Source: Phocaeicola oris
GTDB lineage: Bacteria; Bacteroidota; Bacteroidia; Bacteroidales; Bacteroidaceae
Length of the DNA stretch: 64,000 bases
Assembly (NCBI RefSeq): GCF_021295095.1
Contig: NZ_JAJLQX010000003.1
Location: forward strand, 1 to 64,000
Direction: 5' to 3'
In this document: one piece after another, positions 26,350-44,309 of the stretch
Layout: each line of letters begins with the position of its first letter
Position numbering within the stretch: the first letter of the stretch is position 1
Position numbers and translations under genes: made by a program
Notes under the pieces: model-generated
Told to the model about the DNA's origin: nothing
Databases searched by the model: none
What the model saw: the letters and a program-made list of their open reading frames with translations, nothing else

Positions 26350-26784
26350 TTATATATTTTCGTGGATACGATGGTTTATAGAACAATTCTTACATATCCC
26401 TTTTATCATATAGTTAACGAAATGCATTTCAAAGCCTTCCGGTATTTGAATAATAGGAACCGGCACATCTTTCAAACAAAACGTCTGATGACAGATTTCA
26501 CAATAAAAGTGAGTATGCATGTCATCACAATAATCTTCTCCCTCGCAAACCTCATATTTCAATGCGCCACTACCATCTTCTATCGCATGAATAAGATGAT
26601 GCTTTAAAAATAAAGTCAGTGCACGGAAAACAGTCGATTTATCCACTGTGTCCAACTGTTCCTCGAGTTCGGAAAGTGAAATAGGGCGCTGCTCTTTAAG
26701 CATCTCATCCAATACCAGAATACGTGTAGCTGTAGGATGTATGCCATGCTTTGTCATTCTTTCAACACTACTTAATGATTTCAT
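26350..26784 (-). CDS. Fur-family metalloregulator (Fur/Zur-like)
   Basis: A 144-residue Fur-family repressor, taking the ATG at 26784 (MKSLSSVERMTKHGIHPTATR). The winged helix covers about 10-80 (VDKSTVFRALTLFLKHHLIHAI). The dimerisation domain holds the HxHxxCxxC zinc motif as DDMHTHFYCEICHQTFCL, and a second ICKNCSINH pair near the end, so the structural zinc site is complete. Whether it senses iron, zinc or manganese cannot be told. A minus-strand TACTTTTG at 26811-26818 is its likely -7 box. It lies just upstream of, and divergent from, a TonB receptor of siderophore type. Confidence 0.9.
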   Translation of the reverse strand: MKSLSSVERMTKHGIHPTATRILVLDEMLKEQRPISLSELEEQLDTVDKSTVFRALTLFLKHHLIHAIEDGSGALKYEVCEGEDYCDDMHTHFYCEICHQTFCLKDVPVPIIQIPEGFEMHFVNYMIKGICKNCSINHRIHENI

Positions 26785-26999
26785 TGATTCTCTCTTTATC
26801 TGATTTACAAAAGTAAGGAAAATAAATGGCAATCCGGTTATAATCTGTAAGAAGAAAGAAAACTTTTAGGAATTAGCAAAGAGTTCGGCATGATATCAAG
26901 TGCTCTTATTCTGTTTACCGCTAAAATTTTTAATCTTGCTTTTATACATTATGAAGAGTTGGAAAGCAACATTCCAATAGTCGGACATCACTTTATAAA

Positions 27000-27147
27000 G
27001 TCATACGGATGAGTTGCAAAAGTGATGCGTATGAATCACTCAACTCATACGCATGAGTTGCTCAACTGATACGGATGACTTGTCAAACTCATACGCATGA
27101 GTTACTCAAAACTTTTGATGAGTTCACTATCTCATACGAATCACTTC
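27000..27147. repeat. Array of about six 22-bp palindromic-core repeats
   Basis: Between the Fur gene and the TonB promoter, a core close to CTCATACGCATGAGTT recurs about six times in direct and inverted forms (clear copies near 27002, 27024, 27054, 27068, 27089 and 27131), with a period near 22 bp. A single similar core occurs at 54022-54036. The rest of the 26785-27197 gap shows nothing else recognisable. Confidence 0.75.
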
Positions 27148-27197: not shown

Positions 27198-27245
27198 ATC
27201 CCCATTTCTCGGTATTGTAAGTATAGAAGACACCTCATATCTTTG
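27198..27245 (+). promoter_or_regulatory. Operator-promoter module 1 (XusA-like operon)
   Basis: The near-palindrome ATCCCCATTTCTCGGTAT (27198-27215) is followed directly by TTG (27215-27217), a 20-bp spacer and TATCTTTG (27238-27245). It matches the palindromes at 37495 (13 of 18 positions) and 41446, and all three occupy the same position relative to an identically spaced promoter. A repressor or activator bound there would overlap the -33 element. Confidence 0.7.
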
Positions 27246-27304
27246 TGGAAATAAACCGGTACTCGGCAAATTATGAGCAAGATTACTTTGCATTCGTTTA
27301 TATT

Positions 27305-27311
27305 TACTTTG
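27305..27311 (+). promoter_or_regulatory. Second promoter (-7 box) before leader ORF A
   Basis: TACTTTG lies 20 bp before the ATG of leader ORF A, matching in position the TACCTTTG (41557-41564) before leader ORF B. The -33 region is not clear. It would give a short-leader transcript independent of the upstream operator. Confidence 0.4.
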
Positions 27312-27331
27312 CAAAGGTAAAATAAAAGTGT

Positions 27332-27460
27332 ATGATAAAAGATAAATACTACATAAAAAGGATTATAATAAGATTACTGAGAAGTGCACCATTCATCATA
27401 GAACGGTGCACTTTTTTTATGAACAAAACTAAATGGTGTTCATTTTTGAAAAATAATTGA
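27332..27460 (+). CDS. Leader ORF A, 42 codons, overlapping an intrinsic terminator
   Basis: A short ORF beginning MIKDKYYIKRII, with the C-terminal part ERCTFFMNKTKWCSFLKNN. A second ORF of the same size before the MMPL operon (41583-41720) ends with the same pattern ERCxFFxNKxKxCS, with differences that are mostly conservative (T/A, M/V, T/S) or synonymous. A perfect terminator hairpin lies inside the ORF (27383-27418). The stop is 41 bp before the TonB receptor ATG. It may be a leader peptide controlling attenuation, a small protein, or a by-product of conserved DNA structure; the first is my preferred reading. Confidence 0.45.
   Translation: MIKDKYYIKRIIIRLLRSAPFIIERCTFFMNKTKWCSFLKNN
27383..27418 (+). 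terminator. Intrinsic terminator within leader A
   Basis: AGTGCACC (27383-27390) and GGTGCACT (27405-27412) form a perfect 8-bp stem followed by seven T. It lies downstream of the promoters and 84 bp upstream of the TonB receptor ATG, so it would stop transcription before the operon unless relieved. Confidence 0.75.
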
Positions 27461-27501
27461 ATAAAATAACATACGAAATTATATGGATAAAAAAAATAAT
27501 C

Positions 27502-29871
27502 ATGAGCGATAAAAATATACTTCACAACCTTCTATTAGTGTTGATTTGCCTATTTACATGGCAGAATATGTACGCTCAAAAAATAGTTTATGGTCGAATC
27601 ACTGATGCGCTGACTCACAAACCTTTGGAGGGTGCCACAGTTATATTAGAAGGCACTGGCGTAGGGACAGCCTCCGATGAGGCAGGCACATTTAGAATGC
27701 ATCTTCCCTCAAGTCGCGACAGAAGGATTAAAGTACAATATATAGGATATAAAAGTCGTAATATAGCCTTCAACCAGAAATCATGCGTCAATGACAGCAT
27801 TTGTTGTAATGTGGAATTACAACCATTAAATAATATCTTATCTGATATAGTTATAGTTGGAAAAAGTAAGGCACAAGCGCATCGTGAAGTTCCGTCCGCA
27901 GTTACCATCATCGACGGCCAATCTCTTAGATACAAGACTGCGACCTTAAACGAGATACTTGACAATGCAGCCGGTATCAAGGTGGCTCGACAAGGAGGAT
28001 TAGGTAATGCTTCGCGCGTCATCATACAAGGGATGGACGGTAAGCGCATCGGTATTTTCATCAATGGTATGCCTATGGGAAATTCCGACGAGTTTCAACT
28101 CAGCAGTATTCCTATCGACATGGTTGAGGAGGTGGAGATATATAAAGGTATCATTCCTGCATGGCTGGGCGGTGATGGATTAGGCGGGGCTGTGAACATC
28201 CTGCTGAAAGACTTCAAGACAAATCATTTAGAGGCAGCATTTGAAGTAGCATCTTACAACACGTATATTGGCAGTTTACAGCTGAAGCGCTATTTGGGCA
28301 AAACTTCGACGGCTCTACATGCCGGTGCTACGATGAACTACGCGAAAAACAATTATAGTTTTTCTTCTCCATTCGAGTTAGGACGCATCATCCATCGCGA
28401 CCATGATGCCTATTTACATGAAGGTTTCAATGTAGGTATAAGCAGCCAACAATTGTGGTTTGATCAATTTGACATTACGTTGAGCGCTGACTATTACCGC
28501 AAAGAGATACAAGGTGGACTGATGAACGTTCAAAACAACATACAACATGCTTTTACACGAACACGCTCTGCAAGTTCGGCACTGAGTCTTGAAAAAAGAT
28601 TCTTAAAGGACAAACTCACAGCGCAACTCCACTCCATAGTCAGCTTCAATCTTGTCAATCAGGTGGACACATCGCATTACTGTTACGATTTCATCGGGAA
28701 TAAGTTTCCAAGTGGATCCGAGCGTGGAGAAATAGGCTCCGTTCCAAACGATTCACACGATAAACATACAACTATCCGCGAATTACTCAACCTGACTTAT
28801 AAGGTTGGCAACCATCAACTTATTACATGGAATACCAATTACCGCTATGGGCGCAAAATGCCAAAAGACGAACTTGCCGATCGCTACTCGCGTCTGCCTA
28901 CCAGCGGATACCCGAGCAAATTACATACCATCGTGTCTGGACTGACTCATGAATGGAAACTATGTCATGACAAACTCACAAACGAACTGGGGATAAAGCT
29001 CTTTAATCACCATTCAAGAGTCCTTCCGTTTGCAGAATCCATCATGTTGCAAGAACAGCTTAAAACATCGACCAACCACAGTACCATAATAGGCTGGAGC
29101 GAGGCAATGGCATTACATCTTCTTCAAAACAATGCTTTGACACTGAAAGCCTCCGTGCAATCAACAGTCAGAATGCCGATAGCCGATGAACTGTTTGGTG
29201 ACGGTGTGTTGCTGATCCCGTCTGAAAAGCTTCGCCCTGAGCGTAGTTTTAATATTAACGCAGGGGCAATATGGCTTATCAATGCCGGACGTTATCCGCA
29301 ATTACGAATAGGAGTGAATACATTCTATATGAGCGCAAAGGACATGATTAAGTTGATGTATAGTTCCATGAACATGGCATACGACAATATCGGCAAGGCT
29401 CGCGTGATGGGTATAGATATGGAAATGGACGGCAAGTTAAACCGCTGGTTGGATATGCAGGGAAACATAACGTGGCAAGATGCCCGTGATATGAGAAAGG
29501 AAGCCGTAGGCGGTGGAGAAAACTTTCATTACCGCTATCGAATCCCCAATATGCCTTATCTGTTTAGCAACATCGGACTACGTCTGCACAAAGACAGATT
29601 ATTGGGGAAATCTTCATCCTCGGCCTTTGTCTCTTCTTTCGGATATACCAAAGAATTCAGTTACAATTGGGAGGCAAGTAACAATAACACTATGCTTATA
29701 CCGGCAAGATACAGTTGGGATGTCGCCGTTCATCATTCTTTCAACAAACATTGTCAGCTTAGTTTTGAAGTACAAAATATACTCAACCGTGAGAACTGGG
29801 CGGAATTCCGATATCCGATGGAAAGGCGCACGTTTCACTTAAAGATAAAATACATTATTAATAAAATATAA
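27502..29871 (+). CDS. TonB-dependent receptor, XusA-like
   Basis: A 789-residue receptor from the ATG at 27502 (MSDKNILHNLLLVLICLF; the open frame starts 45 bp earlier). A signal peptide ending MYAQ is followed by a CarboxypepD_reg domain (about 25-110), a plug (about 125-240; AAGIKVARQGGLGNASRVI, then LGGAVNILLKDF) and a barrel ending with HLKIKYIINKI. The downstream DUF4374 lipoprotein (17-bp gap) is the arrangement of the xenosiderophore system XusA-XusB of Bacteroides thetaiotaomicron, so import of a ferric siderophore is likely. A divergent Fur-type regulator and a leader with terminator precede it. The plug (GGLGNASRVIIQGMDGKRIG) is similar to that of the second receptor at 37743. Confidence 0.9.
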   Translation: MSDKNILHNLLLVLICLFTWQNMYAQKIVYGRITDALTHKPLEGATVILEGTGVGTASDEAGTFRMHLPSSRDRRIKVQYIGYKSRNIAFNQKSCVNDSICCNVELQPLNNILSDIVIVGKSKAQAHREVPSAVTIIDGQSLRYKTATLNEILDNAAGIKVARQGGLGNASRVIIQGMDGKRIGIFINGMPMGNSDEFQLSSIPIDMVEEVEIYKGIIPAWLGGDGLGGAVNILLKDFKTNHLEAAFEVASYNTYIGSLQLKRYLGKTSTALHAGATMNYAKNNYSFSSPFELGRIIHRDHDAYLHEGFNVGISSQQLWFDQFDITLSADYYRKEIQGGLMNVQNNIQHAFTRTRSASSALSLEKRFLKDKLTAQLHSIVSFNLVNQVDTSHYCYDFIGNKFPSGSERGEIGSVPNDSHDKHTTIRELLNLTYKVGNHQLITWNTNYRYGRKMPKDELADRYSRLPTSGYPSKLHTIVSGLTHEWKLCHDKLTNELGIKLFNHHSRVLPFAESIMLQEQLKTSTNHSTIIGWSEAMALHLLQNNALTLKASVQSTVRMPIADELFGDGVLLIPSEKLRPERSFNINAGAIWLINAGRYPQLRIGVNTFYMSAKDMIKLMYSSMNMAYDNIGKARVMGIDMEMDGKLNRWLDMQGNITWQDARDMRKEAVGGGENFHYRYRIPNMPYLFSNIGLRLHKDRLLGKSSSSAFVSSFGYTKEFSYNWEASNNNTMLIPARYSWDVAVHHSFNKHCQLSFEVQNILNRENWAEFRYPMERRTFHLKIKYIINKI

Positions 29872-29888
29872 CCATAAAACAAAAAAGT

Positions 29889-31127
29889 ATGAGAACAAAC
29901 AAATTTCTATGGGCATTGCCCTGTCTGACTATGCTGTTTGCAGCAACGATGGTGTCTTGTTCAGATAAGAACGAAGACCATCCCCTGCCTGAAACCAAGC
30001 ATCATTTTCTAATGTCCGCGCAATCGGACAACAGTTTTTTTATCACCAGCTTCGAAAATTTCAACGAAGGTACGTCCGTGTCTTACGATAAAGCCATAAC
30101 GCTTCCCACAGGACACCTCTTCATGGAGAAATATGGAAAGTACGTCTATCTTCAGTCCGGCTCGATGTATGGTTACGGAGGCGAGCAAACTCTCCACAAA
30201 TACGAAGTGAACGCCAACGGGCAACTTTCTGCTCATTCTGTGGGTACACTATCTTTCCCCGGCTCACCCAATGTGGTTGAAATAATCTTTGCAAGCGATA
30301 CGAAAGCTTATGCTGTCACGTGCGCAAGCCGCGGACAACTGATAGTATTCAATCCATCTACAATGACTGTAACAAAAGAGATAGATCTTTCCCCCTACGC
30401 AGAAGGTGATAAAGATCCTGACGGAGGTAACGGTATGGTACGCGACGGCAAATTGTTCCTTCCGCTCAACCAAGCGAAGTCCATGAAGGAAATCCTTGCT
30501 ACACCTGCACAGGTAGCTGTCATTGATGTGGCTACCGACAAGGTGGAAAAGGTTATAAAAGATGACCGCGCAACAAGTCTCGGTATGGTCGGACATACAT
30601 CGCCTGTTATGGACGAAGCCGGTAACATCTATTTCCACACGGGACCTCGTGCGGCGATAATGTGTCAGTTTATGCCCGGCAAGGGATACAAAGACGGACT
30701 GTTGCGTATCAAGAAAGGTGAAACAGATTTCGATAAGGATTTCTACATGAGTCTGCAAACAACCGATGGAGGAGAAGTTGGTTCCTACGGTATGTCTATG
30801 GCCTATGGTGGCAATGGGAAAATCTACATATTCCTTTATAAGCCCTCACTCGTGAAGGATCCCAACGATCAGACCTATATCGTCAACAAATGCTATGTTC
30901 CCTACGAAATAGATGTAAACAAGAAGACAGGACGCATACTTCCTCTTCCCGCTTCATGCGGCTGGGCTTCCAATGCTGTTATCAAGGTGGGAAGTTCCAT
31001 TTATTTCGGTGAACATACCGACAACGGCATAGGCTTCTATCGCTACGACATGGAAACGGGAAAAGGTTCCACGCAACCAAGCGTGAAGACGCCAAGCGGT
31101 GCCTATAAAGTGATTTCACTCGACTAA
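29889..31127 (+). CDS. DUF4374 lipoprotein, XusB-like
   Basis: A 412-residue lipoprotein: signal and lipobox MVSCSDKNED, with acidic residues right after the Cys as in surface-exported Bacteroides lipoproteins. The body is an eight-bladed-propeller-like DUF4374 fold rich in Gly/Asn turns (SFPGSPNVVEI, KLFLPLNQAKSM, GNIYFHTGPRAAI). XusB proteins of this family bind ferric siderophores at the cell surface and hand them to the TonB receptor (family knowledge). It is the second gene of the pair; the paralogue at 40139 follows the second receptor. Confidence 0.87.
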   Translation: MRTNKFLWALPCLTMLFAATMVSCSDKNEDHPLPETKHHFLMSAQSDNSFFITSFENFNEGTSVSYDKAITLPTGHLFMEKYGKYVYLQSGSMYGYGGEQTLHKYEVNANGQLSAHSVGTLSFPGSPNVVEIIFASDTKAYAVTCASRGQLIVFNPSTMTVTKEIDLSPYAEGDKDPDGGNGMVRDGKLFLPLNQAKSMKEILATPAQVAVIDVATDKVEKVIKDDRATSLGMVGHTSPVMDEAGNIYFHTGPRAAIMCQFMPGKGYKDGLLRIKKGETDFDKDFYMSLQTTDGGEVGSYGMSMAYGGNGKIYIFLYKPSLVKDPNDQTYIVNKCYVPYEIDVNKKTGRILPLPASCGWASNAVIKVGSSIYFGEHTDNGIGFYRYDMETGKGSTQPSVKTPSGAYKVISLD

Positions 31128-31168
31128 ACGAGTTGATGGTGTGTCAAGAAAGTTGGCACATCCTCTTA

Positions 31169-31250
31169 AACGAGAGAAAAAAAGCTGTCCCACATCGGGA
31201 CAATGCTTTTCGGAGAGAAAAAAGAGCTGTCCCGCTTTGAACAGCACTTC
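31169..31250. repeat. Two units of the ~41-bp intergenic repeat family
   Basis: Two imperfect units with ACGAGAGAAAAAAAGCTGTC and CGGAGAGAAAAAAGAGCTGTC starts, containing CCCACATCGGGACAATGCTT. The same elements (GGGACAACGCTT, AGAAAAAGCACYGTCCC) are repeated at 44100-44280 and, more distantly, at 36855-37015. A small UUCG-type hairpin (CCGGA-TTCG-TCCGG) follows at 31264-31277. Confidence 0.7.
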
Positions 31251-31307
31251 ATTAGGAAACTTGCCGGATTCGTCCGGTAATTAAACATTCAAAATTAAAA
31301 ACATATA

Positions 31308-31700
31308 ATGATGAAAAAGAATTTTAAAATTTCAATTCTATGGGTTGCCATAGTCGCAGGCATGTCCGCGCATTCTCTGACAGACATGATACCTCTTTTT
31401 TGGAACGCCAACATTGCTGTTTATAACGACGGCGTAGCACCGATGTCTATGCTCGTATTGATGGCCGTTGTTTCACTCACAATACCGATGATAGGATTGC
31501 TCCTTTCGCTCTATGCCCGCAAACGCTGGCATAAGACGGTACATTTCTGTCTCGCCGCTTTCACGGCCCTGTTCTGTACGATACATAGCACGGAACTGAT
31601 AGTCAGCTTTGAGCTTCCGCAACTTTTTATCCATCCTATGCTGATCATAGTGAGCATTGCGCTTGCTTGTGAGGCGTGGAAATGGAATAAAAAAGAATAA
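31308..31700 (+). CDS. Small four-TM membrane protein
   Basis: A 130-residue inner-membrane protein with four predicted TM helices (about 9-27, 45-66, 76-92 and 99-118) and a basic KWNKKE tail. His and Glu in or near the helices (MSAHSLTD, TIHSTELIV) could be functional but match no motif I know. It follows the XusA/XusB-like pair after 180 bp that include repeats. No family is recognised. A role in the siderophore region, for example as a partner of an inner-membrane reductase, is conceivable but unsupported. Confidence 0.65.
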   Translation: MMKKNFKISILWVAIVAGMSAHSLTDMIPLFWNANIAVYNDGVAPMSMLVLMAVVSLTIPMIGLLLSLYARKRWHKTVHFCLAAFTALFCTIHSTELIVSFELPQLFIHPMLIIVSIALACEAWKWNKKE

Positions 31701-31727
31701 ATCATACCAAACATTCATTCAACAAGC

Positions 31728-31767
31728 AAAAAAACGCACTTATCACAATGATATAATGCGTTTTTTT
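31728..31767 (+). terminator. Intrinsic terminator upstream of the outer-membrane barrel gene
   Basis: AAAAAAACGCA (31728-31738) pairs with TGCGTTTTTTT (31757-31767). Like the terminators in leaders A and B it is followed by sequence ending GTTCA-TTTT-like (31787-31796) shortly before the next start codon. Here no continuous ORF runs through it, so it may simply end the preceding small membrane protein gene. Confidence 0.65.
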
Positions 31768-31824
31768 GCCTAACGAATTGAATGACGTTCACTTTTCATG
31801 TAACTCCAACAAAACTCATTGACA

Positions 31825-32421
31825 ATGAAAAAGCAGCTATTCACATTTATCTTATCCCTCGTTCCATTCATCGGCTGGGCGCAAGAGCAAATCACATTGC
31901 CTTTTCAAGAAGACGACCACGAAGAGGGATTGTTCATAGGCGGCACCGTTACATATTGGAACAATACGAAGACCAAAGCTACCACGTTGCAGTTCTATCC
32001 CGAAATAGGCTGGCACTTCAACGATACATGGGCAACAGGCATTATGTTGGGCTATGCCTTCAACTCCGAGCGTGGCGATAACGGACGCGAAAGGTCGCAT
32101 GCCCTTAAAATATCGCCTTTTGTACGCTACTATTATCTGCACAAAGGGCCGTTCAACCTCTACTTAGACGGTGGCATCGGCTACAACTACATAACTCCAA
32201 CCGATCCGAACAAAACAGACAAACATCACGGCTTAGAAATAGGGTTGCGTCCGGGCGCGTGCGTAGATTTGACCAAAGGACTGTGTCTTTGTATGCGTAT
32301 GGGCTTCGCAGGTTACCGAAAGAATTATTTCTCAGGCGAGGAGCAGGAAATCGGCAATGACGGCTTTGGTCTCCACTTTACTCCCGAGGAGGTGATGATT
32401 GGTTTAGAGTTAGAGTTTTAA
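31825..32421 (+). CDS. Outer-membrane beta-barrel protein
   Basis: 198 residues from the ATG at 31825; a TTG six bases earlier is also in frame. A signal peptide (MKKQLFTFILSLVPFIGWAQ) is followed by eight amphipathic strands with alternating aromatic residues (TYWNN, LQFYPEIGW, YAFNSE, ISPFVRYYY, LYLDGGIGYNYI), ending in GLELEF. The size and pattern fit a small OmpA/OmpW-like porin-fold protein. The function is unknown. It is located between the Xus-like pair and the TetR-ABC operon, with 68 bp to the TetR gene. Confidence 0.75.
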   Translation: MKKQLFTFILSLVPFIGWAQEQITLPFQEDDHEEGLFIGGTVTYWNNTKTKATTLQFYPEIGWHFNDTWATGIMLGYAFNSERGDNGRERSHALKISPFVRYYYLHKGPFNLYLDGGIGYNYITPTDPNKTDKHHGLEIGLRPGACVDLTKGLCLCMRMGFAGYRKNYFSGEEQEIGNDGFGLHFTPEEVMIGLELEF

Positions 32422-32489
32422 AGAAACAGTAATTTCACCGATTACCTATATGATATGAACGATATAACATTCTCATTTTTTATTAGATT

Positions 32490-33104
32490 ATGCAGACTTT
32501 GAAGACAGATATTGAGCAACGCATATTGGAAGTAGCGCATCAGGAGTTCATCGAGAACGGGGTGCAGCGAACGTGCATCCGTAACGTGGCACGCAAGGCA
32601 GGTGTGACCGTGGGCAACCTATATCATTATTTCGACAGTAAGGACGCGCTGTTTTGCGAGGTTATGCGACCGTTACTTACCGCGCTCGACCGATACATCC
32701 TCTCGCACAACGACGAGGAGCGTCTCTCGCTCGACGTGTTCGAACTTCGGCAACAGCACATTGACTACATGTTTTCCATGTTCGCTATTGTCAAGGAATT
32801 CCGTCCAGAACTGCGCTTGCTGCTCTTCAATGCCGAAGGAACTTCATTAGAGGGGTACAAGAACAAAGTCATCGACCACCAGATGCAGGTAGGCGTGGAG
32901 TATCTGCGACTGATGAAGGAACGCTATCCGCATCTCAACATCAACATATCGCCGTTCCTGCTCCATCTCACCTGCTCGTCGTGGATGACCCTCTTCTGCG
33001 AACTCGTGGAACACGAGGATTATAGCGAGGAGGAAATCAAGCTGGCACTCAGGCAGTATGCCAATTACGGTATAGCAGGGTGGAAAGAATTGATGAAACC
33101 ATAG
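32490..33104 (+). CDS. TetR-family transcriptional regulator
   Basis: A 204-residue repressor. The N-terminal HTH (about 10-55) reads ILEVAHQEFIENG...RNVARKAGVTVGNLYHYFDSKDALF, the classical TetR signature; the all-helical C-terminal ligand domain follows. It lies 25 bp upstream of two ABC half-transporter genes and is presumably in the same operon. No perfect operator is seen; a weak TGAAC-N-TTCTCA dyad lies at 32456-32475 just upstream. It is a candidate regulator of the neighbouring envelope genes. Confidence 0.92.
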   Translation: MQTLKTDIEQRILEVAHQEFIENGVQRTCIRNVARKAGVTVGNLYHYFDSKDALFCEVMRPLLTALDRYILSHNDEERLSLDVFELRQQHIDYMFSMFAIVKEFRPELRLLLFNAEGTSLEGYKNKVIDHQMQVGVEYLRLMKERYPHLNINISPFLLHLTCSSWMTLFCELVEHEDYSEEEIKLALRQYANYGIAGWKELMKP

Positions 33105-33129
33105 AATAATTTTCAAAACATATAAAGGT

Positions 33130-34884
33130 ATGATAAAAACACTCAAACGCTTAGGGGCTTATATGGGAAGGCGCAAACCCTTGCTGCCCTGCTCTGTCGG
33201 GCTGTCGGCAGTCAACGGGCTGCTCTCGCTCGTCCCATTTATTCTTATGTGGCTCGTGGTACGCACGCTGCTCACCACGGAGGGCAGCCTTACCGACGCG
33301 CCCGTATGGGGCTATGCTCTTGCCGCTTTCATTGTGTCGGTACTTAATGTATTGCTCTACTTCGCGGCACTCATGCTCTCGCATCTCGCTGCGTTCCGTA
33401 TCGAAACCAATATGCGCCGCAGCGCGATGGAACGGCTCATGCGTGTGCCATTGGGATTCTTCGATACACAGAATACCGGACGCATGCGCAAAATCATTGA
33501 CGAGGACTCCGCGCAGACACATACATTCGTGGCGCATATCCTGCCCGACGCGGCGGGAAGCATTGTCACCCCCATTGGTGTCATCGTATTGCTGCTTGCG
33601 GTCGATTGGCAGTTGGGCTTGGCGGCCATGCTGCCCATAGTCTGCGCCTTCGGCATCATGGGCTATATGATGAATCCAAAAAACAACAACTTCCAAAAGC
33701 AATATCTCGACGCGCAGGAAAAGATGAGCGGCGAGGCAGTGGAATATGTACGCGGAATTCCGGTGGTGAAGGTTTTCCAACAGACCGTCTTCTCGTTCAA
33801 GCGGTTCCACGACAGCATCATCCGCTATCGTGACCTTGTTATTCAGTACACCTTGATGTGGCGCTCTCCGATGTCGGCCTACACCGTTGCCATCAATGCC
33901 TTTGCTTTCTTCCTCGTGCCGGTGGGCATCATCCTGATCGGGCATGGGGGAAGTGTGCCGGTGGTCATTGCCGACCTGTTCCTCTTCGTCGTCATCACAC
34001 CGGTCATTGCAACCAATGTGATGAAGATGATGTATCTCAGCCAGAATCTTTTCTTGGCAAACGAGGCGGTAGACCGATTGGAGAAACTGACCGACGTCTC
34101 GTTGCTTCCCGATACGAATGCACCTCAAACATCCCCAACCTTCGATATCCGTTTCAATAACGTTTCGTTCAGATATGAGGGAATGGAGAAAGATGCCGTC
34201 AGCCACATCAACCTCACCATTCCCGAAGGAAAAACGGTGGCGCTCGTGGGAGCTTCGGGCAGTGGAAAAACGACGATGGCACGGCTTATCCCGCGCTTCT
34301 GGGACGTGCGCGAGGGTAGTGTGAGCATCGGCGGAGTGGATGTCCGGCAGATGGATAAATCGGAACTGATGCGCCATGTGTCTTTCGTTTTCCAGAATAC
34401 CCGCTTGTTTAAAACCTCGCTGATGGAAAACCTGCGCTACGGCAATCCCGAGGCAACGGCGGAACAGATAGACCGAGCGATAGACCTCTCGCAAAGCCGT
34501 GAAATCATCGACCGTCTGCCCCAAGGTTTAAACACTGTTATCGGAACGGAGGGGACTTATCTCTCCGGTGGCGAACAGCAGCGCATTGTCCTCGCGCGTG
34601 CCATTCTGAAAGACGCGCCCATCGTGGTGCTCGACGAAGCTACTGCCTTTGCCGACCCGGAGAACGAGTACCTTATCCGTCAGGCACTCGCACACCTGAC
34701 TCACGGAAAAACCGTTTTGATGATAGCTCACCGACTGACCACCGTACAAGATGCCGATAACATTGTGGTGGTGGATAACGGACAGATAGTCGAACAGGGT
34801 ACGCACAAGGAACTGCTGGCTAAGCAGGGACTCTATTACAACATGTGGAACGAATACCGGAAAGCGGTGGCATGGAAACTGTAA
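33130..34884 (+). CDS. ABC half-transporter (TMD-NBD), exporter fold
   Basis: A 584-residue protein: six TM helices (about 20-315), then an NBD with Walker A GASGSGKTT, Q-loop FVFQNTRLF, signature LSGGEQQRIVLARA, Walker B IVVLDEATAF with catalytic Glu, and H-loop IAHRLTT. Both this and the following protein keep consensus motifs, so the heterodimer should have two active ATP sites. Type IV fold pairs next to siderophore receptors can be importers (YbtPQ, IrtAB) as well as exporters. That is the most interesting option here, but direction cannot be read from sequence. The base composition is visibly G+C-rich. Confidence 0.93.
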   Translation: MIKTLKRLGAYMGRRKPLLPCSVGLSAVNGLLSLVPFILMWLVVRTLLTTEGSLTDAPVWGYALAAFIVSVLNVLLYFAALMLSHLAAFRIETNMRRSAMERLMRVPLGFFDTQNTGRMRKIIDEDSAQTHTFVAHILPDAAGSIVTPIGVIVLLLAVDWQLGLAAMLPIVCAFGIMGYMMNPKNNNFQKQYLDAQEKMSGEAVEYVRGIPVVKVFQQTVFSFKRFHDSIIRYRDLVIQYTLMWRSPMSAYTVAINAFAFFLVPVGIILIGHGGSVPVVIADLFLFVVITPVIATNVMKMMYLSQNLFLANEAVDRLEKLTDVSLLPDTNAPQTSPTFDIRFNNVSFRYEGMEKDAVSHINLTIPEGKTVALVGASGSGKTTMARLIPRFWDVREGSVSIGGVDVRQMDKSELMRHVSFVFQNTRLFKTSLMENLRYGNPEATAEQIDRAIDLSQSREIIDRLPQGLNTVIGTEGTYLSGGEQQRIVLARAILKDAPIVVLDEATAFADPENEYLIRQALAHLTHGKTVLMIAHRLTTVQDADNIVVVDNGQIVEQGTHKELLAKQGLYYNMWNEYRKAVAWKL

Positions 34885-34905
34885 ACATTCAAATGACATA
34901 CAAAG

Positions 34906-36633
34906 ATGATTAAATATTTTCAAAACCGTTTCGCCCTTTCGGAAAAAGGGGCAAAAGACTTGCGGAGGGGGATAGCCTTCTCAACGCTGCTCAACCTTGC
35001 GCTGATGTTGCCGCCCACCTATCTGTTCCTCTTCCTCATGGAATACTTGGAAGTTATTCCCGATACCAATCGACATGCATTGGGGTTCTATGTGTTATTG
35101 GCAGTTGTGCTGATGTGCGTGATGTTCGTCATCGCCCGATGGCAGTACGACAGTACCTACACCACCATTTACAATGAGAGCGCGCAACGTCGTATAAGTA
35201 TGGCGGAGAAACTGCGCCGTCTGCCCCTCGCGTTTTTTGGTGAGCGGAATCTTTCCGACCTTACCTCTACCGTTATGGAAGACTGCACTTCGCTGGAGCA
35301 AATCTTCTCTCACGCTGTTCCTCAACTGTTCGCTTCGGTGCTGAGTATGCTCATCATTGCCGTCGGTCTGTTCTTCTACGACTGGCAACTGGCTGTCGCC
35401 CTCTTCTGGGTAGTGCCATTGGCTTTAGCAACTTTGCTGTTGGCAAGACACAGGATGAACAAATCTTTCGTGCAGAATTACCGTGTTAAGCGTGGTGTAA
35501 CCGAACATATACAGGAGGGATTGGAATGTGTGCAGGAGATAAAGTCGTACAATGGCGAGGACGAATACAACCGCCGTTTCGACAATCGGCTGACAGCGTA
35601 TGAGAAAGAATTGGTCAGCGGCGAATTAGTGGCTGGCGTATTTGTCAATCTCTCTGCCATGCTCCTGAAATTAGGTATGCCCACCGTCATTCTCTTAGGT
35701 GCATGGTTGCTGCAAAGGGGCGAGGTTAGCATATTTGTTTATATGGCATTCCTCCTCATTTCGGCCATGGTATATAACCCCATTCAGGAAGTATGCAACA
35801 ATCTCGCCATACTCACTTTCCTTGACGTTCGTATCAACCGGATGAAAGAAATAGAAGCGATGCCGGAGCAGAAAGGAACCAAGGAGATGAAAGTAGATAA
35901 TTATGACATCGAGTTCCGCGACGTCAGCTTTGCCTACGAAACCGAAAGGCAGGTATTGAGCCATGTCTCGTTCACTGCCCGTCAGGGAGAAGTAACGGCA
36001 CTCGTCGGTCCGTCGGGAGGCGGCAAAAGCACCACCGCCAAACTTGCCGCACGATTTTGGGACATCGACAGTGGCATGATTCTGCTTGGTGGAAACGACA
36101 TCTCACACATCGACCCAGAGACGCTGCTTCGCAACTATGCCGTGGTGTTTCAAGACGTGCTGCTCTTCAATGCCTCTGTCGCCGACAATATCCGCATCGG
36201 CAAGCGCGATGCCACCGACGAGGAAGTGCGGCGCGTGGCACAGCTGGCACAGTGCGACGACTTCATCAGTCGTATGCCTCAGGGCTACGACACCGTCATC
36301 GGCGAGAACGGCGAAACCCTTTCGGGTGGCGAGCGACAGCGCATCTCCATTGCCCGAGCCCTGCTGAAAGACGCTCCCGTCATTCTCTTGGACGAAGCCA
36401 CCGCCAGCCTCGATGCCGAGAACGAAACCAAAATTCAGGCAGGTATCTCCGAATTAGTGCGTAATAAGACCGTCATCATCATCGCCCACCGCATGCGCAC
36501 CGTACGCAATGCCAACCACATCGTGGTGCTTGGCGGCGGAACGGTCATCGAGCAGGGCATGCCCGACGAACTCATGGCTCAGGGCGGCGAGTTTGCCCGG
36601 ATGGTGGCATTGCAACAGGGAAATAAGTCATAA
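34906..36633 (+). CDS. ABC half-transporter (TMD-NBD), exporter fold
   Basis: The 575-residue partner of the preceding protein, 22 bp downstream. Six TM helices (about 25-310) and an NBD with GPSGGGKSTTAK, VVFQDVLLF, LSGGERQRISIARALL, VILLDEATAS and IAHRMRT, all canonical. The segment HIQEGLECVQEIKSYNGEDEY in the TM5-6 region is typical of the YbtP/IrtB-like branch of these proteins. Together with the TetR gene it makes a three-gene unit between two siderophore-type TonB/lipoprotein pairs. Confidence 0.93.
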   Translation: MIKYFQNRFALSEKGAKDLRRGIAFSTLLNLALMLPPTYLFLFLMEYLEVIPDTNRHALGFYVLLAVVLMCVMFVIARWQYDSTYTTIYNESAQRRISMAEKLRRLPLAFFGERNLSDLTSTVMEDCTSLEQIFSHAVPQLFASVLSMLIIAVGLFFYDWQLAVALFWVVPLALATLLLARHRMNKSFVQNYRVKRGVTEHIQEGLECVQEIKSYNGEDEYNRRFDNRLTAYEKELVSGELVAGVFVNLSAMLLKLGMPTVILLGAWLLQRGEVSIFVYMAFLLISAMVYNPIQEVCNNLAILTFLDVRINRMKEIEAMPEQKGTKEMKVDNYDIEFRDVSFAYETERQVLSHVSFTARQGEVTALVGPSGGGKSTTAKLAARFWDIDSGMILLGGNDISHIDPETLLRNYAVVFQDVLLFNASVADNIRIGKRDATDEEVRRVAQLAQCDDFISRMPQGYDTVIGENGETLSGGERQRISIARALLKDAPVILLDEATASLDAENETKIQAGISELVRNKTVIIIAHRMRTVRNANHIVVLGGGTVIEQGMPDELMAQGGEFARMVALQQGNKS

Positions 36634-36647
36634 TGAAAAGAACATAC

Positions 36648-36826
36648 TTGCGCATGGCGCGCCATGCCTCGTCGCGCAGCGCGTCAATCCCAACGGCGTG
36701 TCCGGGTTTGGTGTCGGCCAATGGCAGTTTCTCGGTTTCCGCGATGACGAGTTTATGAAATCCGAAATCTTCTTCCACACGGAGACGTGTGAGGTCGAGT
36801 TTTTGAATGCTTTTAATCATAATCAT
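36648..36826 (-). pseudogene. 5' fragment of a DUF6261-like gene
   Basis: The minus-strand frame starting at 36826 (MIMIKSIQKLDLTRLRVEED, FGFHKLVIAETEKLPL) resembles the N-terminus of DUF6261-type proteins common in Bacteroides. It then jumps to an RDEAWRAMRK-like piece and runs into the 3' end of the ABC gene. The normal length is over 200 residues, so this looks like an internally deleted remnant. The family call is tentative. Confidence 0.45.
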
Positions 36827-36854
36827 CGTGTTTTATAGGTTAATTTATAAAAAA

Positions 36855-37015
36855 AGTACAGTCGGAGTTCCCGATAACACTTTTTTGTTCGTAGAAGTGC
36901 TTTCGGGGTTCCCGACAATGCATTTTTTCTCGTAAAAGAGGTTTCGGAGTCCCCGACAGCACTTTTTTCTTCGTAAGAGCACCGTCGGGAGAATTTTCTT
37001 GCCTCTTTCCGATTA
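36855..37015. repeat. About three units of a ~41-bp repeat (variant)
   Basis: GTTCCCGATAACACTTTTTT, GTTCCCGACAATGCATTTTTT and GTCCCCGACAGCACTTTTTT begin successive units about 41 bp apart, each followed by CGTAGAAG/CGTAAAAG/CGTAAGAG and a G-rich end. The pattern CCCGACA-GC-TTTTT-CGTAAAAG links this array to those at 31169 and 44093-44560. Confidence 0.75.
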
Positions 37016-37390
37016 TTCGAACGGTACAGCAGGGTAGCCTCCCCAACGGTAACTGATGGTCATGTGTATACAAGAGTTGGTGTACAACAAGCAGTACGTA
37101 GTTACACCATTGTCAGAGCAGGCACCCGACGACCAATAGTAGCAACCGCTGCCAACTTGGTTGAGCGTGTCTTCGCGGTAGTAGCCAAGAGCAGGTAGGA
37201 AGAAGTAGTTAGCCTGCTCGAAAGCAGCAGGAAGGATGTCGTTTTTAGTGATGGTATAGGCTTTATAGGTTATACGCACGTCAGTGCTGCCGTCAGCAGA
37301 TACATATTTCAATTGATCACGGAAACGACCTACGGACTGAGCTATCTTCTCAATCTTCTTAAACCATATACCGCCTTTGTAAAATGCCAT
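37013..37390 (-). CDS. Small protein with a FISUMP/DUF1566-like C-terminus
   Basis: A 125-residue protein without a signal peptide (MAFYKGGIWFKKIEKIAQS). The C-terminal half, ANYFFLPALGYYREDTL, then GSGCYYWSSGACSDNG and SYRWGGYPAVPFE, carries the YWSS and terminal G-x-P-V pattern of FISUMP/DUF1566-type C-type-lectin-like domains. Alone, 125 residues are short for such proteins, which are usually long and secreted, so this may be a detached or eroded domain. It overlaps the 41-bp repeat array by a few bases at its 3' end. No function is assigned. Confidence 0.5.
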   Translation of the reverse strand: MAFYKGGIWFKKIEKIAQSVGRFRDQLKYVSADGSTDVRITYKAYTITKNDILPAAFEQANYFFLPALGYYREDTLNQVGSGCYYWSSGACSDNGVTTYCLLYTNSCIHMTISYRWGGYPAVPFE

Positions 37391-37494
37391 TTGTTATTCC
37401 TTCGTTATTTTCTCGTTTATAAGAATACGGCAATTCTTTGAGAGTTCCCAAACTGCGATTTGAGTTTAATGTACACTCGCGAGAATAGAACAAA

Positions 37495-37542
37495 ATACCC
37501 AATATTGGGTATTGCCGTTTCTGGCATTTACCTCTACTTTTG
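37495..37542 (+). promoter_or_regulatory. Operator-promoter module 2 (second TonB receptor)
   Basis: The perfect 18-bp palindrome ATACCCAATATTGGGTAT (37495-37512) runs into TTG (37512-37514), a 20-bp spacer and TACTTTTG (37535-37542). The 200-bp 5' leader that follows contains an inverted repeat (CTTGATT...GGGC...AATCAAG, about 37683-37714) but no leader ORF like those at 27332 and 41583. Confidence 0.8.
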
Positions 37543-37742
37543 CACCGTCGAAGTCGAAGAGAAAACAGATGGTTCCATACACTATCACTTCGTATTCATA
37601 AAAACATATAGGAAAAACATAGTGATACAGCCACATCAAGGCATGAAATCATTAAGATAGAATTTTTGATTAAATCTCTTTGGCTTGATTTGCCCTTATA
37701 GGGCACGAATCAAGTTATAATATATAATATAAATAAGGAAAG

Positions 37743-40103
37743 ATGAAAAACGGTAAACGATATATCCACATATTATTGATGGCATGGATCTGGATGATGG
37801 CAGGGGCTTCCGGCTCTGCTCAGAAAATGATTTTATGCGGTCATGTTACCGACCAGCTCTCGGGCGAACCTCTCATCGGAGCCACCGTAAAGGTGATGGA
37901 AACAAGCACAGGAGGAATAGCCAACGACAACGGATTCTATAGCGTAGGCATACGACGAGGCAGCAGGGTGAGGGTGCAATGTTCTTTCGTGGGTTATCAG
38001 ACGGCAACGGTTACACTCGAACAAACCAATGCCGATAGCCTGAGGCATGATTTCAGTCTTGTGCCATCGGCCAACAGACTCGATGAGGTGCTAATAACCA
38101 GTCGGAGCGAGATGCGCCAACTGAGAGAATCGGGCATGCCTATATCGGTCATCGGTCAGCAACAGCTACAGGGCACTGCGTCTAACATCAACGATGTATT
38201 AGCCCGCACGGTGGGTATTACTATGCGCAACACAGGCGGCATGGGCAGCGCGTCACGCATATCCGTGCGAGGACTGGAGGGCAAACGCATGGGGCTGTTT
38301 ATCGATGATTCTCCTTTAGGGAACGTGGGTAACTTTGTAGCTCTGAGCGATATTCCCACGAGCATGATAGAACGAATAGAAGTGTACAAGGGTATCGTAC
38401 CTTACAAGTTTGGCGGTTCGGCATTGGGCGGAGCGGTGAACGTAGTAACTAAGGAATACCCGCCCACATATTTGGATGTGTCGTACGAGATAGCCTCGTT
38501 CAATACCCATCAGTTTTCGACAGTACTCAAGCGCACCAACCATAAAACGGGACTGCAGTTTGGCGCAGGCGGCGTGGTGAGCTATTCTGATAACGACTAT
38601 ACCATGAAACTCACCACGCTTGATGGGCGCACAGTGAGACGCGACCATGACAGGTTTCGCAAGTACATCGGCGGAATATCGATCAAGGCTACGGAATGGT
38701 GGTTTGACGAGATGAAATTGGAACTGGAAGGAGTTTCTACCAACCAACAGATACAAGGCTTTGAAACCGATATTCGTGAAGCGTACAACCATTCGTCGAG
38801 CCTGATGTCGTCGCTTACGCTCAAGCGCCAGAACTTCTTTGCCGACGGACTCGATTTTGACTTCGACCTTGCGTTTGTGCTGGGTAAGTACGGACTCGTG
38901 GACAAGGCCTTGCGCCGCTACGATTGGGACGGCAACAGCTTTCCGGCCGTATCGCCCTACGGAGGCGAGCAAGGATCATACCCTTCCGATGCCGACAACA
39001 GGAGTATCGACCTGAACGCCAAACTCAACATGAACTACACTCTTGCCCGTCACCATGCGGTGAACCTCAATGTCTGCGCTACCAATACCAATATGTTTCC
39101 CAAAAATGACCTGATGGACAAGGCTCTGGGATTCATAGCTAATTTCCACAGTCGCATGAGCAATCTCACGGTGGGGCTGTCTTACGACCTCTCGCTTTTC
39201 GACAACAAGCTGCAGAACGCACTCACTCTGAAGGAATACTTGTACAGCTCCCACTCACGCAACATTGACGGTTATTCCATCTCTTCTCCCAAGCCTGTAA
39301 GAATGTCGAAAAACTATTTCGGCTTCAGTGATGCCATCCGCTATGCGTTTACGCCCGATTTAATGGTGAAAGGCTCGTTCAATTCGGAAGTCCGCATCCC
39401 CACAAGCGAGGAACTGATAGGCAATGGATACTCGGTGTTGGCATCGCCTGCCCTGAGGCCGGAACGCGTCAAAGGTGTTAATTTGGGACTTCTCTATCGG
39501 CATCAGAAAAAAGATGGCGGCATTCTCGAAGCCGAGCTCAACGCGTTCTTCAACACTTTGGAAGACATGGTGCGTTTCGTGCCGGATATGGTGCCGAGTC
39601 TGGCCCGTTACCGTAACTTCGGCACGGTGCGCACAAAGGGAGTGGAACTCGAGCTCAAAGGAGATGTGCATCCGCTGTTGTATCTCTATGCCAACGGAAC
39701 ACTGCAAGACTTACGCGATGTGCGTAAGACTGTGCCGGAAACATCGGTGCCCAATCCCACAAGGAACATGCGCATACCCAACGTGCCCTACCTGATGGGC
39801 AACTTTGGCGCGGAATTTCATAAAGCCAATCTGTTTGGAGGCAAACGACAGAATACGCGTATCCTCTTCGACGCGTCGTACGTACATAAATACTTCTACG
39901 ATTTTGAGATGAGCAAGAATCAGGAACGCAAAATTCCTACCTCCTTTACCATGGATACCGCAGTGGAACACGCCTTTATGGACAACCGGTGGACACTTAC
40001 GCTGAAGATGAAGAACATCGCCGACAGGCGTGTCATTTCAGAACTTAACTGTCCATTACCCGGTCGGTCTGTATGGTTTAAGGTGCGCTACCTACTGAAA
40101 TAG
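37743..40103 (+). CDS. TonB-dependent receptor, XusA-like
   Basis: A 786-residue receptor: signal peptide (MKNGKRYIHILLMAWIWMM...SAQ), CarboxypepD_reg domain (about 30-110), plug (about 120-240; TVGITMRNTGGMGSASRIS, ALGGAVNVVTKEY) and barrel ending ...VWFKVRYLLK. It is a paralogue of the receptor at 27502, sharing the plug pattern GG-GSAS/NAS-R-x-GLEGKR. It is followed after 35 bp by a second DUF4374 lipoprotein, so it is the second XusA/XusB-like unit of the region. Different barrel loops suggest a different siderophore. It is preceded by the most perfect copy of the shared operator. Confidence 0.92.
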   Translation: MKNGKRYIHILLMAWIWMMAGASGSAQKMILCGHVTDQLSGEPLIGATVKVMETSTGGIANDNGFYSVGIRRGSRVRVQCSFVGYQTATVTLEQTNADSLRHDFSLVPSANRLDEVLITSRSEMRQLRESGMPISVIGQQQLQGTASNINDVLARTVGITMRNTGGMGSASRISVRGLEGKRMGLFIDDSPLGNVGNFVALSDIPTSMIERIEVYKGIVPYKFGGSALGGAVNVVTKEYPPTYLDVSYEIASFNTHQFSTVLKRTNHKTGLQFGAGGVVSYSDNDYTMKLTTLDGRTVRRDHDRFRKYIGGISIKATEWWFDEMKLELEGVSTNQQIQGFETDIREAYNHSSSLMSSLTLKRQNFFADGLDFDFDLAFVLGKYGLVDKALRRYDWDGNSFPAVSPYGGEQGSYPSDADNRSIDLNAKLNMNYTLARHHAVNLNVCATNTNMFPKNDLMDKALGFIANFHSRMSNLTVGLSYDLSLFDNKLQNALTLKEYLYSSHSRNIDGYSISSPKPVRMSKNYFGFSDAIRYAFTPDLMVKGSFNSEVRIPTSEELIGNGYSVLASPALRPERVKGVNLGLLYRHQKKDGGILEAELNAFFNTLEDMVRFVPDMVPSLARYRNFGTVRTKGVELELKGDVHPLLYLYANGTLQDLRDVRKTVPETSVPNPTRNMRIPNVPYLMGNFGAEFHKANLFGGKRQNTRILFDASYVHKYFYDFEMSKNQERKIPTSFTMDTAVEHAFMDNRWTLTLKMKNIADRRVISELNCPLPGRSVWFKVRYLLK

Positions 40104-40138
40104 TTAACAATATTGTTTCATTTTAATATTTTTATTTT

Positions 40139-41395
40139 ATGAAAATCAGAACTCTTTTTTTTTCATTCATCATGATGACCCTTGCTGCCGGTTGTGGCAG
40201 CAAGGACGATCCAACACCTAATCCTCCTACCCCAACCCCTACTCCTACGCCGAAAGCTGAGACCTTCAAAGGCGTACTCTTTGCCGCCAGCGTAACCAAT
40301 GCTGAAGGCAACTCGGGCACCGTACACCTTCAGGCTGTTCCCGATTTCACGCCCGGCAATTACGATAACAAGAACAGCATACCCATGGGATTCGGCGTGA
40401 TGCCCATCGCCACCAACCGAGGCAACATATATACGCTGCCCGACTACATGGGTGGCGGCAAGTCGGAAATAGTGCGCTATACGCTCAACGACAAAGCAGA
40501 GTGGCAGAAGCAGGGAGCACTTGCCGTGCCTGCGAAATCATCGCCAGCCAACATCGTGGAACTGAACGATGAAAAGGCATTCCTCACCTTACAGGGTACA
40601 GGAAAGATTATGGTATTCAACCCCAAGACCATGACCAAGATTGAAGATATCGACTTGAATGCCTTGAGCTACGAGAATACCAATGTCTCTCCTGCGGCCA
40701 TGGTTATACGCGACGAAAAACTCTATGTAGGACTCAATCAGATGGGCGCCCGCTATATGCCGGTGAAGAACACGGTGGAGGTGGCCATTATTGACGCCAA
40801 GACCAACAAACTGCTCAAGCACATCGTCGACGAGAAGCCCGGCTTCTGTTTTGCCACACGCCCCATCGATCCCAGATCTATCTTTGTAGACGAACACAAT
40901 GACATTTATATCAACTGTATCGGAGCTTTTGGATTCCTTCCCGACTTTCCGGGAGGCATTGTACGTATAAAGAGCGGACAAGACGAGATAGACCCAACCT
41001 ATAAGATGGACATCAGCAAGATCAAGGTGGAAGGTCTGTCGTGCGAATATGGCGAGTTCCTCTCCACCGTCTGCTACGACAAGAACGGTTTACTCTACGG
41101 CTACCTCAATGCCTATAAGTTAGACCCAACCGGTATGGAACATGCCTATACCTGCCTGACAAACGTAGCCGTATGTATAGATCTCAAGGCAAAAACCATC
41201 AAAGCAATCAAGGGTTTGGATGTATCGAATCCGCATGGAGTTGCCGTTGGCAAGCATAAGAATCTGATAGTATTCGGCAATGCCGGCAAAAAGACAACGG
41301 GATTCTTCTCTTACGAACCAACTACCGGAAAAGTAGAAGGTCCCGTGATGAACATCACAGGCAATCCATTCTTCTTCTATAGCTACGCGGAGTAA
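40139..41395 (+). CDS. DUF4374 lipoprotein, XusB-like
   Basis: A 418-residue lipoprotein with lipobox TLAAGC followed by GSKDD and a Pro/Thr linker (PTPNPPTPTPTPTPK), typical of surface-tethered Bacteroides lipoproteins. The DUF4374 propeller-like body (GVMPIATNRGNIYTLPDYMG, LYVGLNQMGARYMP, DIYINCIGAFGFLPDFPG) parallels the protein at 29889. By analogy with XusB it would capture a ferric siderophore and deliver it to the receptor encoded just upstream. Iron as ligand is inference from family and context. Confidence 0.87.
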   Translation: MKIRTLFFSFIMMTLAAGCGSKDDPTPNPPTPTPTPTPKAETFKGVLFAASVTNAEGNSGTVHLQAVPDFTPGNYDNKNSIPMGFGVMPIATNRGNIYTLPDYMGGGKSEIVRYTLNDKAEWQKQGALAVPAKSSPANIVELNDEKAFLTLQGTGKIMVFNPKTMTKIEDIDLNALSYENTNVSPAAMVIRDEKLYVGLNQMGARYMPVKNTVEVAIIDAKTNKLLKHIVDEKPGFCFATRPIDPRSIFVDEHNDIYINCIGAFGFLPDFPGGIVRIKSGQDEIDPTYKMDISKIKVEGLSCEYGEFLSTVCYDKNGLLYGYLNAYKLDPTGMEHAYTCLTNVAVCIDLKAKTIKAIKGLDVSNPHGVAVGKHKNLIVFGNAGKKTTGFFSYEPTTGKVEGPVMNITGNPFFFYSYAE

Positions 41396-41445
41396 GGAGA
41401 GAGAGTTCCACAGGTAAATCCGCGACACTTCCACACGAAAAGAAA

Positions 41446-41493
41446 ATACCAAATATTAGGTATTGCCGCGTTCAGCATTTACCTCTACCTTTG
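41446..41493 (+). promoter_or_regulatory. Operator-promoter module 3 (MMPL operon)
   Basis: The imperfect palindrome ATACCAAATATTAGGTAT (41446-41463), then TTG (41463-41465), a 20-bp spacer and TACCTTTG (41486-41493), the same geometry as the modules at 27198 and 37495. The spacer itself is similar to that of module 2 (both contain GCATTTACCTC). A second -7 box, TACCTTTG, lies at 41557-41564, 18 bp before leader ORF B. Confidence 0.8.
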
Positions 41494-41582: not shown

Positions 41583-41720
41583 ATGATAAGAAGAAGAAAA
41601 CATCACGGACAGTTGGAAACTGTCGTTTCATATTGGGCGCGCCGTTCAGACAATGAGCGGTGCGCTTTTTTTGTGAACAAATCGAAACGATGTTCATTAT
41701 ATAAGCGTGTATTTGAGTAA
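41583..41720 (+). CDS. Leader ORF B, 45 codons, overlapping an intrinsic terminator
   Basis: The ORF begins MIRRRKHHGQLETVVSYW and closes with ERCAFFVNKSKRCSLYKR. The latter half matches leader ORF A upstream of the first TonB receptor (ERCxFFxNKxKxCS). The N-terminal halves do not align apart from the MI-basic start. The terminator hairpin at 41637-41672 lies inside the frame. The stop is 26 bp before the MMPL ATG. The recurring combination of promoter, short ORF, internal terminator and downstream envelope gene suggests regulation by translation of the leader. Confidence 0.45.
   Translation: MIRRRKHHGQLETVVSYWARRSDNERCAFFVNKSKRCSLYKRVFE
41637..41672 (+). terminator. Intrinsic terminator within leader B
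   Basis: GCGCGCCG (41637-41644) pairs with CGGTGCGC (41658-41665; one G-U), followed by seven T. It lies 75 bp upstream of the MMPL gene and downstream of its promoters. Confidence 0.7.
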
Positions 41721-44188: not shown

Positions 44189-44290
44189 AAGAAAAAGTAC
44201 CGTCCCACATCGGGACAACGCTTCCATGAAAGAAAAAGCACCATCCCATATCGGGACAACGCTTTTACGAGAGAAAAAGCAGTGGCGACA
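44093..44290. repeat. 41-bp tandem repeat array I
   Basis: About four and a half units of 41 bp, each starting GGGACAACGCTTCCATGAAA and containing AGAAAAAGCACCGTCCCA. The first units lie inside the 3' end of the MMPL gene and code for its terminal residues. Inverted elements CCGTCCCACATCGGGAC can form hairpins in every unit. Confidence 0.9.
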
Positions 44291-44309
44291 CCCGACGACA
44301 GCACTTTTT

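Follow-up and report, generated by a model that had tools for sequence, protein, structure and literature searches.

The stretch of DNA analysed here (the window) comprises 64,000 nucleotides, positions 1 to 64,000 of contig NZ_JAJLQX010000003.1 of the Phocaeicola oris assembly GCF_021295095.1, and carries three operons that are preceded by the same composite element. In each case a palindromic operator of the form ATACC-N8-GGTAT overlaps the TTG of a promoter of the form TTG-N20-TAnnTTTG, which is exact at all three sites; we call the operator and promoter together the module. Two of the operons open with a TonB-dependent receptor gene and the third with an MMPL transporter gene:

27198..27245 (+): module 1, before a TonB receptor operon; operator 27198-27215, TTG 27215-27217, TAnnTTTG 27238-27245; E 1.8e-5.
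27457..29871 (+): TonB-dependent receptor (family match); the true start may lie further in.
29889..31127 (+): second gene of the module 1 receptor operon; weak DUF4374 match, 24.4 bits against a cut-off of 25.
37495..37542 (+): module 2, before the second TonB receptor operon; perfect palindrome 37495-37512, TTG 37512-37514, TAnnTTTG 37535-37542; E 6.5e-9.
37743..40103 (+): TonB-dependent receptor (family match).
40139..41395 (+): second gene of the module 2 receptor operon, 418 aa; no Pfam family at cut-off.
41446..41493 (+): module 3, before the MMPL operon; operator 41446-41463, TTG 41463-41465, TAnnTTTG 41486-41493; E 8.9e-9.
41747..44188 (+): MMPL-family transporter (family match).
44597..45370 (+): LolA-like outer-membrane lipoprotein-sorting protein, E 1.3e-63; same strand, 408 bp past the MMPL gene, putatively co-transcribed with it.
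45373..46680 (+): DUF1302 protein (family match).

The operator reads ATACCCAATATTGGGTAT at 37495, ATACCAAATATTAGGTAT at 41446 and ATCCCCATTTCTCGGTAT at 27198. The original prediction had described a palindrome overlapping TTG-N20-TAnnTTTG at these three positions, with 13 of 18 positions kept in the weakest copy. All three sites are present as it described them: the 18-mer at 37495 matches the perfect palindrome without a mismatch, that at 41446 differs at two positions, and a count by eye at 27198 gives the same 13/18.

With a matrix that included these sites, the three score 35.8, 51.7 and 50.6 bits; among 40 Markov-shuffled versions of the window the highest score was 14.7. The genome-wide E values listed above rest instead on a sequence-only model built from 63 sites of the same family (Bacteroidaceae), none of them from the P. 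oris genome; its independence is partial, since sites of that genome had shaped the first search pattern. In the 2.98 Mb genome, the operator and the TAnnTTTG (-7) box at their fixed spacing have four exact matches. The bare ATACC-N8-GGTAT is barely above chance (11 exact matches in the genome, 7 for the pattern read backwards) and was dropped as evidence, and a version of the module with three mismatches was uninformative (73 matches against 64 for the control). One perfect ATACC-N8-GGTAT, at 7747, lacks the TTG-N20-TAnnTTTG geometry and stands before a Cas12a-like gene. Two further matches, at 18846 inside a frame that reads like a MarR protein and at 147299 inside a 797-aa frame, were taken as chance. 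A weak module lies at 52960-53007 (18.5 bits against the same shuffle maximum), ahead of a 130-aa lipoprotein-like frame at 53211.

Searched with at most one mismatch, the module has 92 matches in 36 of 61 genomes of the family; the original prediction had proposed to look for such conservation in related genomes. The reversed pattern gave one match in the same genomes, and so did a fairer control in which the operator halves were permuted and the promoter was kept. Among the 90 distinct sites, positions outside the search pattern are conserved as well: the left flank is A-rich, T/A follows ACC, the centre is A/T, and the base preceding the palindrome is always A or T. Their consensus, AAWATACCTA-N4-TAGGTATTG, can be read as TACCTAA-like heptamers in a 7-2-7 inverted repeat.

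A frame starts within 500 bp downstream of 81 of the 90 sites. Clustering of these frames, with names assigned by eye, yielded 15 TonB/CarboxypepD-like, 7 porin-like and 6 TetR frames, three groups of three (including cysteine synthase-like and enolase-like frames), several pairs and many singles. The original prediction had proposed to test whether matches cluster at siderophore receptors. TonB-type genes are frequent (15/81 frames), but many targets are of other kinds, so that the list is mixed and not confined to iron uptake. In the P. oris genome outside the window, the 63-site model places sites with E below 0.006 before a TonB receptor (contig C2), a methyltransferase (C22), a lipoprotein-like gene (C27), HmuY and flavodoxin genes (C33), and LutA-like and hemerythrin genes (C50). 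The module is family-wide and is restricted neither to envelope operons, as the original prediction had framed it, nor to the window.

Sites in other species mark similar genes. In B. fragilis they precede TonB-type receptors, flavodoxin, hemerythrin-CdhR and enolase genes, and in P. plebeius the CdhR operon, a LutA-like gene and a formate-lyase-like gene (names by eye in both). Bacteroides faecis is a near relative of B. thetaiotaomicron. Of the 13 matches with E below 0.05 in its 6.0 Mb genome, 8 fall within about 34 kb of one contig. The B. faecis sites precede an HmuY-type/TonB operon, a TetR gene with two ABC genes, a flavodoxin operon, a hemerythrin gene with CdhR, a sugar-transferase-like gene and others, as read from translations rather than a family search. 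By gene content and order, these loci would correspond to BT0491-99, BT0507-09, BT0515-17, BT0519-20 and BT0523. In B. thetaiotaomicron these genes were raised 2- to 675-fold under iron limitation, according to the excerpted text of the iron-stimulon study (Lewis and Gui, PMC10434189). The same excerpts report a 13- to 136-fold rise, under iron limitation, for P. gingivalis PG1175-81, which comprise ABC, lipoprotein-sorting, MMPL and TetR genes; in the window, likewise, an MMPL gene is followed by a LolA-like gene.

The hemerythrin operon among these targets also encodes a candidate regulator. On contig C50 of the P. oris genome, at about 78.87-80.17 kb and flanked by two sites, a gene for a 236-aa hemerythrin protein is followed by one for a 199-aa protein (P0001) that carries a GerE helix-turn-helix (HTH) domain of the NarL/LuxR type (E 2.5e-18). 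The site at the promoter of this operon scores 29.7 bits with two mismatches. A hemerythrin-HTH operon of this layout has been named CdhR in P. gingivalis (PG1236-37) and B. thetaiotaomicron (BT0519-20) in the excerpted PMC10434189, and the available part of PMC10101095 describes CdhR as an activator of hmu. Our link between the C50 operon and CdhR (PG1237) is drawn from this published layout rather than from P. gingivalis or B. thetaiotaomicron sequences.

The module recurs at the promoter of the hemerythrin-CdhR operon itself. From a set of 110 such loci, of which 18 were not assessable, 60 of the remaining 92 have it there and four more have it divergently only; the matrix had been built with at least two of the 60, and some loci are near relatives of each other. 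None of 4000 reversed random segments reached the threshold. By eye, the right half of the operator is often degenerate at these promoters. As a separate observation, also by eye, the -7 box of three CdhR operons of one genus (L144, L152, L153) apparently lies one base further and was missed by the fixed-spacing matrix.

Regulator and module also tend to occur in the same family genomes. P0001 has matches in 57 of the 61, the four without any match also lack the module, and in 35 of the 36 genomes that carry the module the match is at least as good as E 2.4e-20. In 19 of 22 loci of the separate type the hemerythrin gene adjoins the HTH gene (adjacency of open reading frames), and in the other three a frame with the same LGFG signature is present; in some genera they are fused, with eight further loci encoding one protein of 315-330 aa; Pfam bore out the fusion in the single case submitted to it. 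Across 22 sequences the HTH helix region hardly varies, which is what a constant operator would require. In 21 hemerythrin sequences H94, H139 and E143 (H139xxxE143) and H216 and E220 (H216xxxE220) are invariant and H172 is nearly so, the pattern expected of a di-iron site. A search of viral contigs with P0001 gave one distant locus and no lead.

P0001 also has a receiver-like part. Several solved response regulators match P0001 across it too (VraR, for example, over residues 16-192), and Pfam assigned no receiver family to it at E 0.05. In the 22-sequence alignment the column of the likely phosphoacceptor holds Asn in the majority and Asp in P0001 itself, and the whole part is missing from the fused forms. 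Because the receiver-like domain appears degenerate, the signal to the HTH protein more likely comes from the hemerythrin protein than from a kinase.

The geometry of the module bears on the mode of regulation. When the spacing was left free between 8 and 38 bp, 15 of 19 matches, which come from 17 palindromes with two read on both strands, lay exactly 22 bp before TAnnTTTG; one lay at 23 bp and one each at 13, 15 and 30 bp. In the -7 box numbering of Bacteroides promoters, the operator is centred near -42 relative to the predicted transcription starts. Such a rigid position, overlapping the predicted upstream promoter element, is characteristic of class II activators rather than repressors.

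Together, these data suggest that the palindrome is the operator of the CdhR-type regulator of P. oris, the NarL/LuxR-family HTH protein encoded on another contig in one operon with the hemerythrin protein; we put the probability of this reading at about 0.78. We then propose a model for its action. When iron is scarce, the hemerythrin partner would change state, its di-iron centre being lost or altered, and would thereby let the HTH protein bind, as a dimer, to the 7-2-7 inverted repeat about 42 bp before the transcription start. The bound dimer would help RNA polymerase to switch on the receptors, heme uptake, MMPL and TetR-ABC operons, flavodoxin and its own operon. Operator binding, activation and iron sensing by the CdhR-type protein are inferred; the proposal that iron loss acts as the trigger draws on the kinds of target genes and on low-iron induction published for other species.

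Several observations weigh against this assignment. Many of the frames preceded by the module are not plainly iron genes (enolase, cysteine synthase, porin-like, sulfatase-like), and low-iron induction alone would also be compatible with relief of repression by Fur. Four of the 19 matches with free spacing lie at other distances. Of the 92 assessable CdhR loci, 28 have no scored site, seven of them in the family of the window and the other 21, by their record titles, in Parabacteroides, Paludibacter, Tannerella, Dysgonomonadaceae, Alistipes, Barnesiella and unplaced Bacteroidales. At up to one mismatch, 25 of the 61 family genomes lack the module, and 21 of these have some P0001 match (E 0.001); conversely, one genome (G059) has two sites and only a weak P0001 match (3.4e-15), and the matches in many genomes extend over nothing but the HTH, which is a common domain. 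Outside the family there are 33 module matches in 22 of 244 genomes (three for the reversed control). P0001 matches below 1e-20 are absent from all 22 of these genomes and occur in three others outside the family, which carry no module; this phylum-wide co-occurrence is a weak test, as only 3 of its 247 genomes are from the family.

The original prediction had inferred one dedicated regulator from the shared geometry and had named two candidates encoded close to the modules:

26350..26832 (-): Fur-family protein, encoded divergently; not retained as the most likely regulator.
32490..33104 (+): TetR-family protein; rejected as the regulator, with relatives elsewhere that look like targets.

The first part of that inference stands, since one shared operator-promoter module makes one regulator probable; the two candidates fare worse. 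The stronger alternative to a CdhR-type activator is that a Fur-family protein, either the one in the window or the best-matching one on contig C23, is a repressor and the palindrome an unusual Bacteroidales Fur box relieved at low iron. The genome encodes three Fur-family proteins, iron-type targets and reported low-iron induction fit Fur derepression, and the window Fur has strong matches (E below 1e-25) in 51 of the 61 family genomes. Yet a repressor site would seldom keep so rigid a distance from the -7 box, and the module marks the CdhR operon rather than the window Fur gene, which has no module before it. The occurrence comparison, which covered the window Fur with the C23 protein outside it, found no match to the window Fur in two site-bearing genomes (G047 with four sites, G016 with one) and one of only 1.9e-5 in a third (G002, three sites). 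The consensus also differs from the classical Fur box, in agreement with the earlier remark that this is not a classical Fur box. We consider Fur an unlikely regulator of these operons.

Less probable still is that the operator belongs to the TetR protein at 32490, acting as a dedicated local repressor. The TetR gene lies between the sites, and in at least six loci related TetR genes have the module 5-159 bp before the frame, as with autoregulated TetR genes. Because the module precedes them there, TetR genes of this kind look like targets, and no module stands directly before the window TetR itself. Moreover, strong homologs (E below 1e-20) occur in 14 of the 61 family genomes compared with 36 that have the module, and flavodoxin, enolase and LutA-like targets occur in genomes without a TetR of the window type. 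A third alternative, in which the three sites are alike simply because Bacteroidota promoters are strong or because one promoter was recently duplicated, is scarcely credible: TTG and TAnnTTTG are ordinary promoter parts, modules 2 and 3 resemble each other past the operator, and the out-of-family matches exceed their reversed control, but permuting the operator while keeping the promoter all but abolishes the matches (1 against 92), and unsearched positions are conserved too, with never a C or G before the palindrome. A Crp/Fnr- or LysR-type site was set aside by reasoning on the half-site pattern only.

If the CdhR-type protein does read the operator, a wider role is conceivable. In Bacteroidaceae and in many other Bacteroidales, the master switch for iron starvation might be a hemerythrin sensor of iron (or of iron and oxygen) that is split from or fused to a NarL-type activator. 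Such a sensor would be a positive, hemerythrin-based counterpart of Fur, with a reading of iron like that of FBXL5 in animals. A single operator might then serve to induce the genes for iron acquisition and iron sparing, and a terminator in the leader might form a second gate for some of the operons. We regard this broader proposal as tentative, with the odds somewhat against it as a whole.

The possible second gate is seen in the leaders of two of the window operons, where a common element occurs:

27380..27451 (+): leader element in the module 1 leader, a terminator-like hairpin with a T7 tail followed by a TGAAC/GTTCA hairpin; folding z -4.25; member of the element model.
41633..41705 (+): the same element in the MMPL leader (module 3); folding z -3.65; member of the element model.

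Close copies from another genus, in the leaders of TetR operons of two genomes, make up the rest of the model. The element was located in leaders of module-preceded operons (L084, L085, L087, L280:5745-5815), and weaker matches were obtained in B. faecis, where the TetR gene ends ahead of an ABC gene (E 2e-4), and downstream of the TetR frame in two further loci (G041, E 2e-4; G011, E 1e-3), with several more weak ones. A strict terminator scan found hairpins in 6 of 21 leaders of at least 90 nt compared with 2 of 1050 shuffles; it missed both window leaders, whose hairpins were revealed by folding. The element, which is not among the two Rfam matches of the window, may be an attenuator or the end of a small RNA.

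Repeats were also seen in these regions. Tandem arrays or copies of a 22-bp, near-palindromic unit resembling ACTCATACGCATGAGT lie upstream of or near module promoters (26996-27103; L047:6653-6863; L045:10393-10530). Arrays of a 41-bp tandem repeat are found at 36862-36976, 44089-44320 and 44296-44553; the second and third lie where the MMPL gene ends and ahead of the LolA-like gene. Elsewhere in the window, the gene from 7903 reads like Cas12a by eye, a CRISPR-type repeat array spans 13641-14256, and a Bacteroidales-1 (suggested 6S) RNA lies at 53639-53815 on the minus strand (176 bits).

Iron sensing in Bacteroidota is poorly known, and the mechanism of regulation by CdhR is called unclear in the excerpted iron-stimulon paper (PMC10434189). 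An operator, a likely regulator and a predicted target list make the CdhR question directly testable in B. thetaiotaomicron. The assignment suggests that work commonly ascribed to Fur is done by a hemerythrin protein together with a DNA-binding activator, and that the MMPL/LolA-like and TetR-ABC operons probably take part in the response to iron. Our literature search did not find the palindromic operator or the family-wide regulon; the primary CdhR papers lay outside it, and a published CdhR site at hmuY is possible. The excerpted PMC9666725 and PMC12040651 give no operator.

Among known systems, the closest is CdhR itself (PG1237 with the hemerythrin PG1236; BT0519-0520), a known hmu activator with a hemerythrin partner whose operon is laid out like that on C50. 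To the published CdhR our analysis adds the operator, the rigid promoter geometry, the module at its own promoter and a family-wide target list. Both receptors of the window are clearly of the TonB type; in comparison with XusABC, judged from Pfam families rather than from XusA or XusB sequences themselves, one partner gene comes just short of the DUF4374 cut-off and the other has no such match. Iron-type genes among the targets are shared with Fur boxes, from which the operator differs in its sequence and in its rigid promoter position. ScdA and YtfE, hemerythrin-type repair proteins, share the conserved His/Glu pattern and match the hemerythrin profile (8.7e-6 and 6.8e-5); here, the hemerythrin protein is coupled to a DNA-binding protein. 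In animals, FBXL5-like proteins are hemerythrin iron sensors. With the NarL/FixJ regulators the CdhR-type protein has the GerE HTH in common, and both VraR and NarL chains match P0001, whose receiver appears degenerate by comparison and is absent from the fused forms. The NarL heptamer has the consensus TACYNMT, and the operator described here, a 7-2-7 inverted repeat, is arranged like the NarL heptamers.
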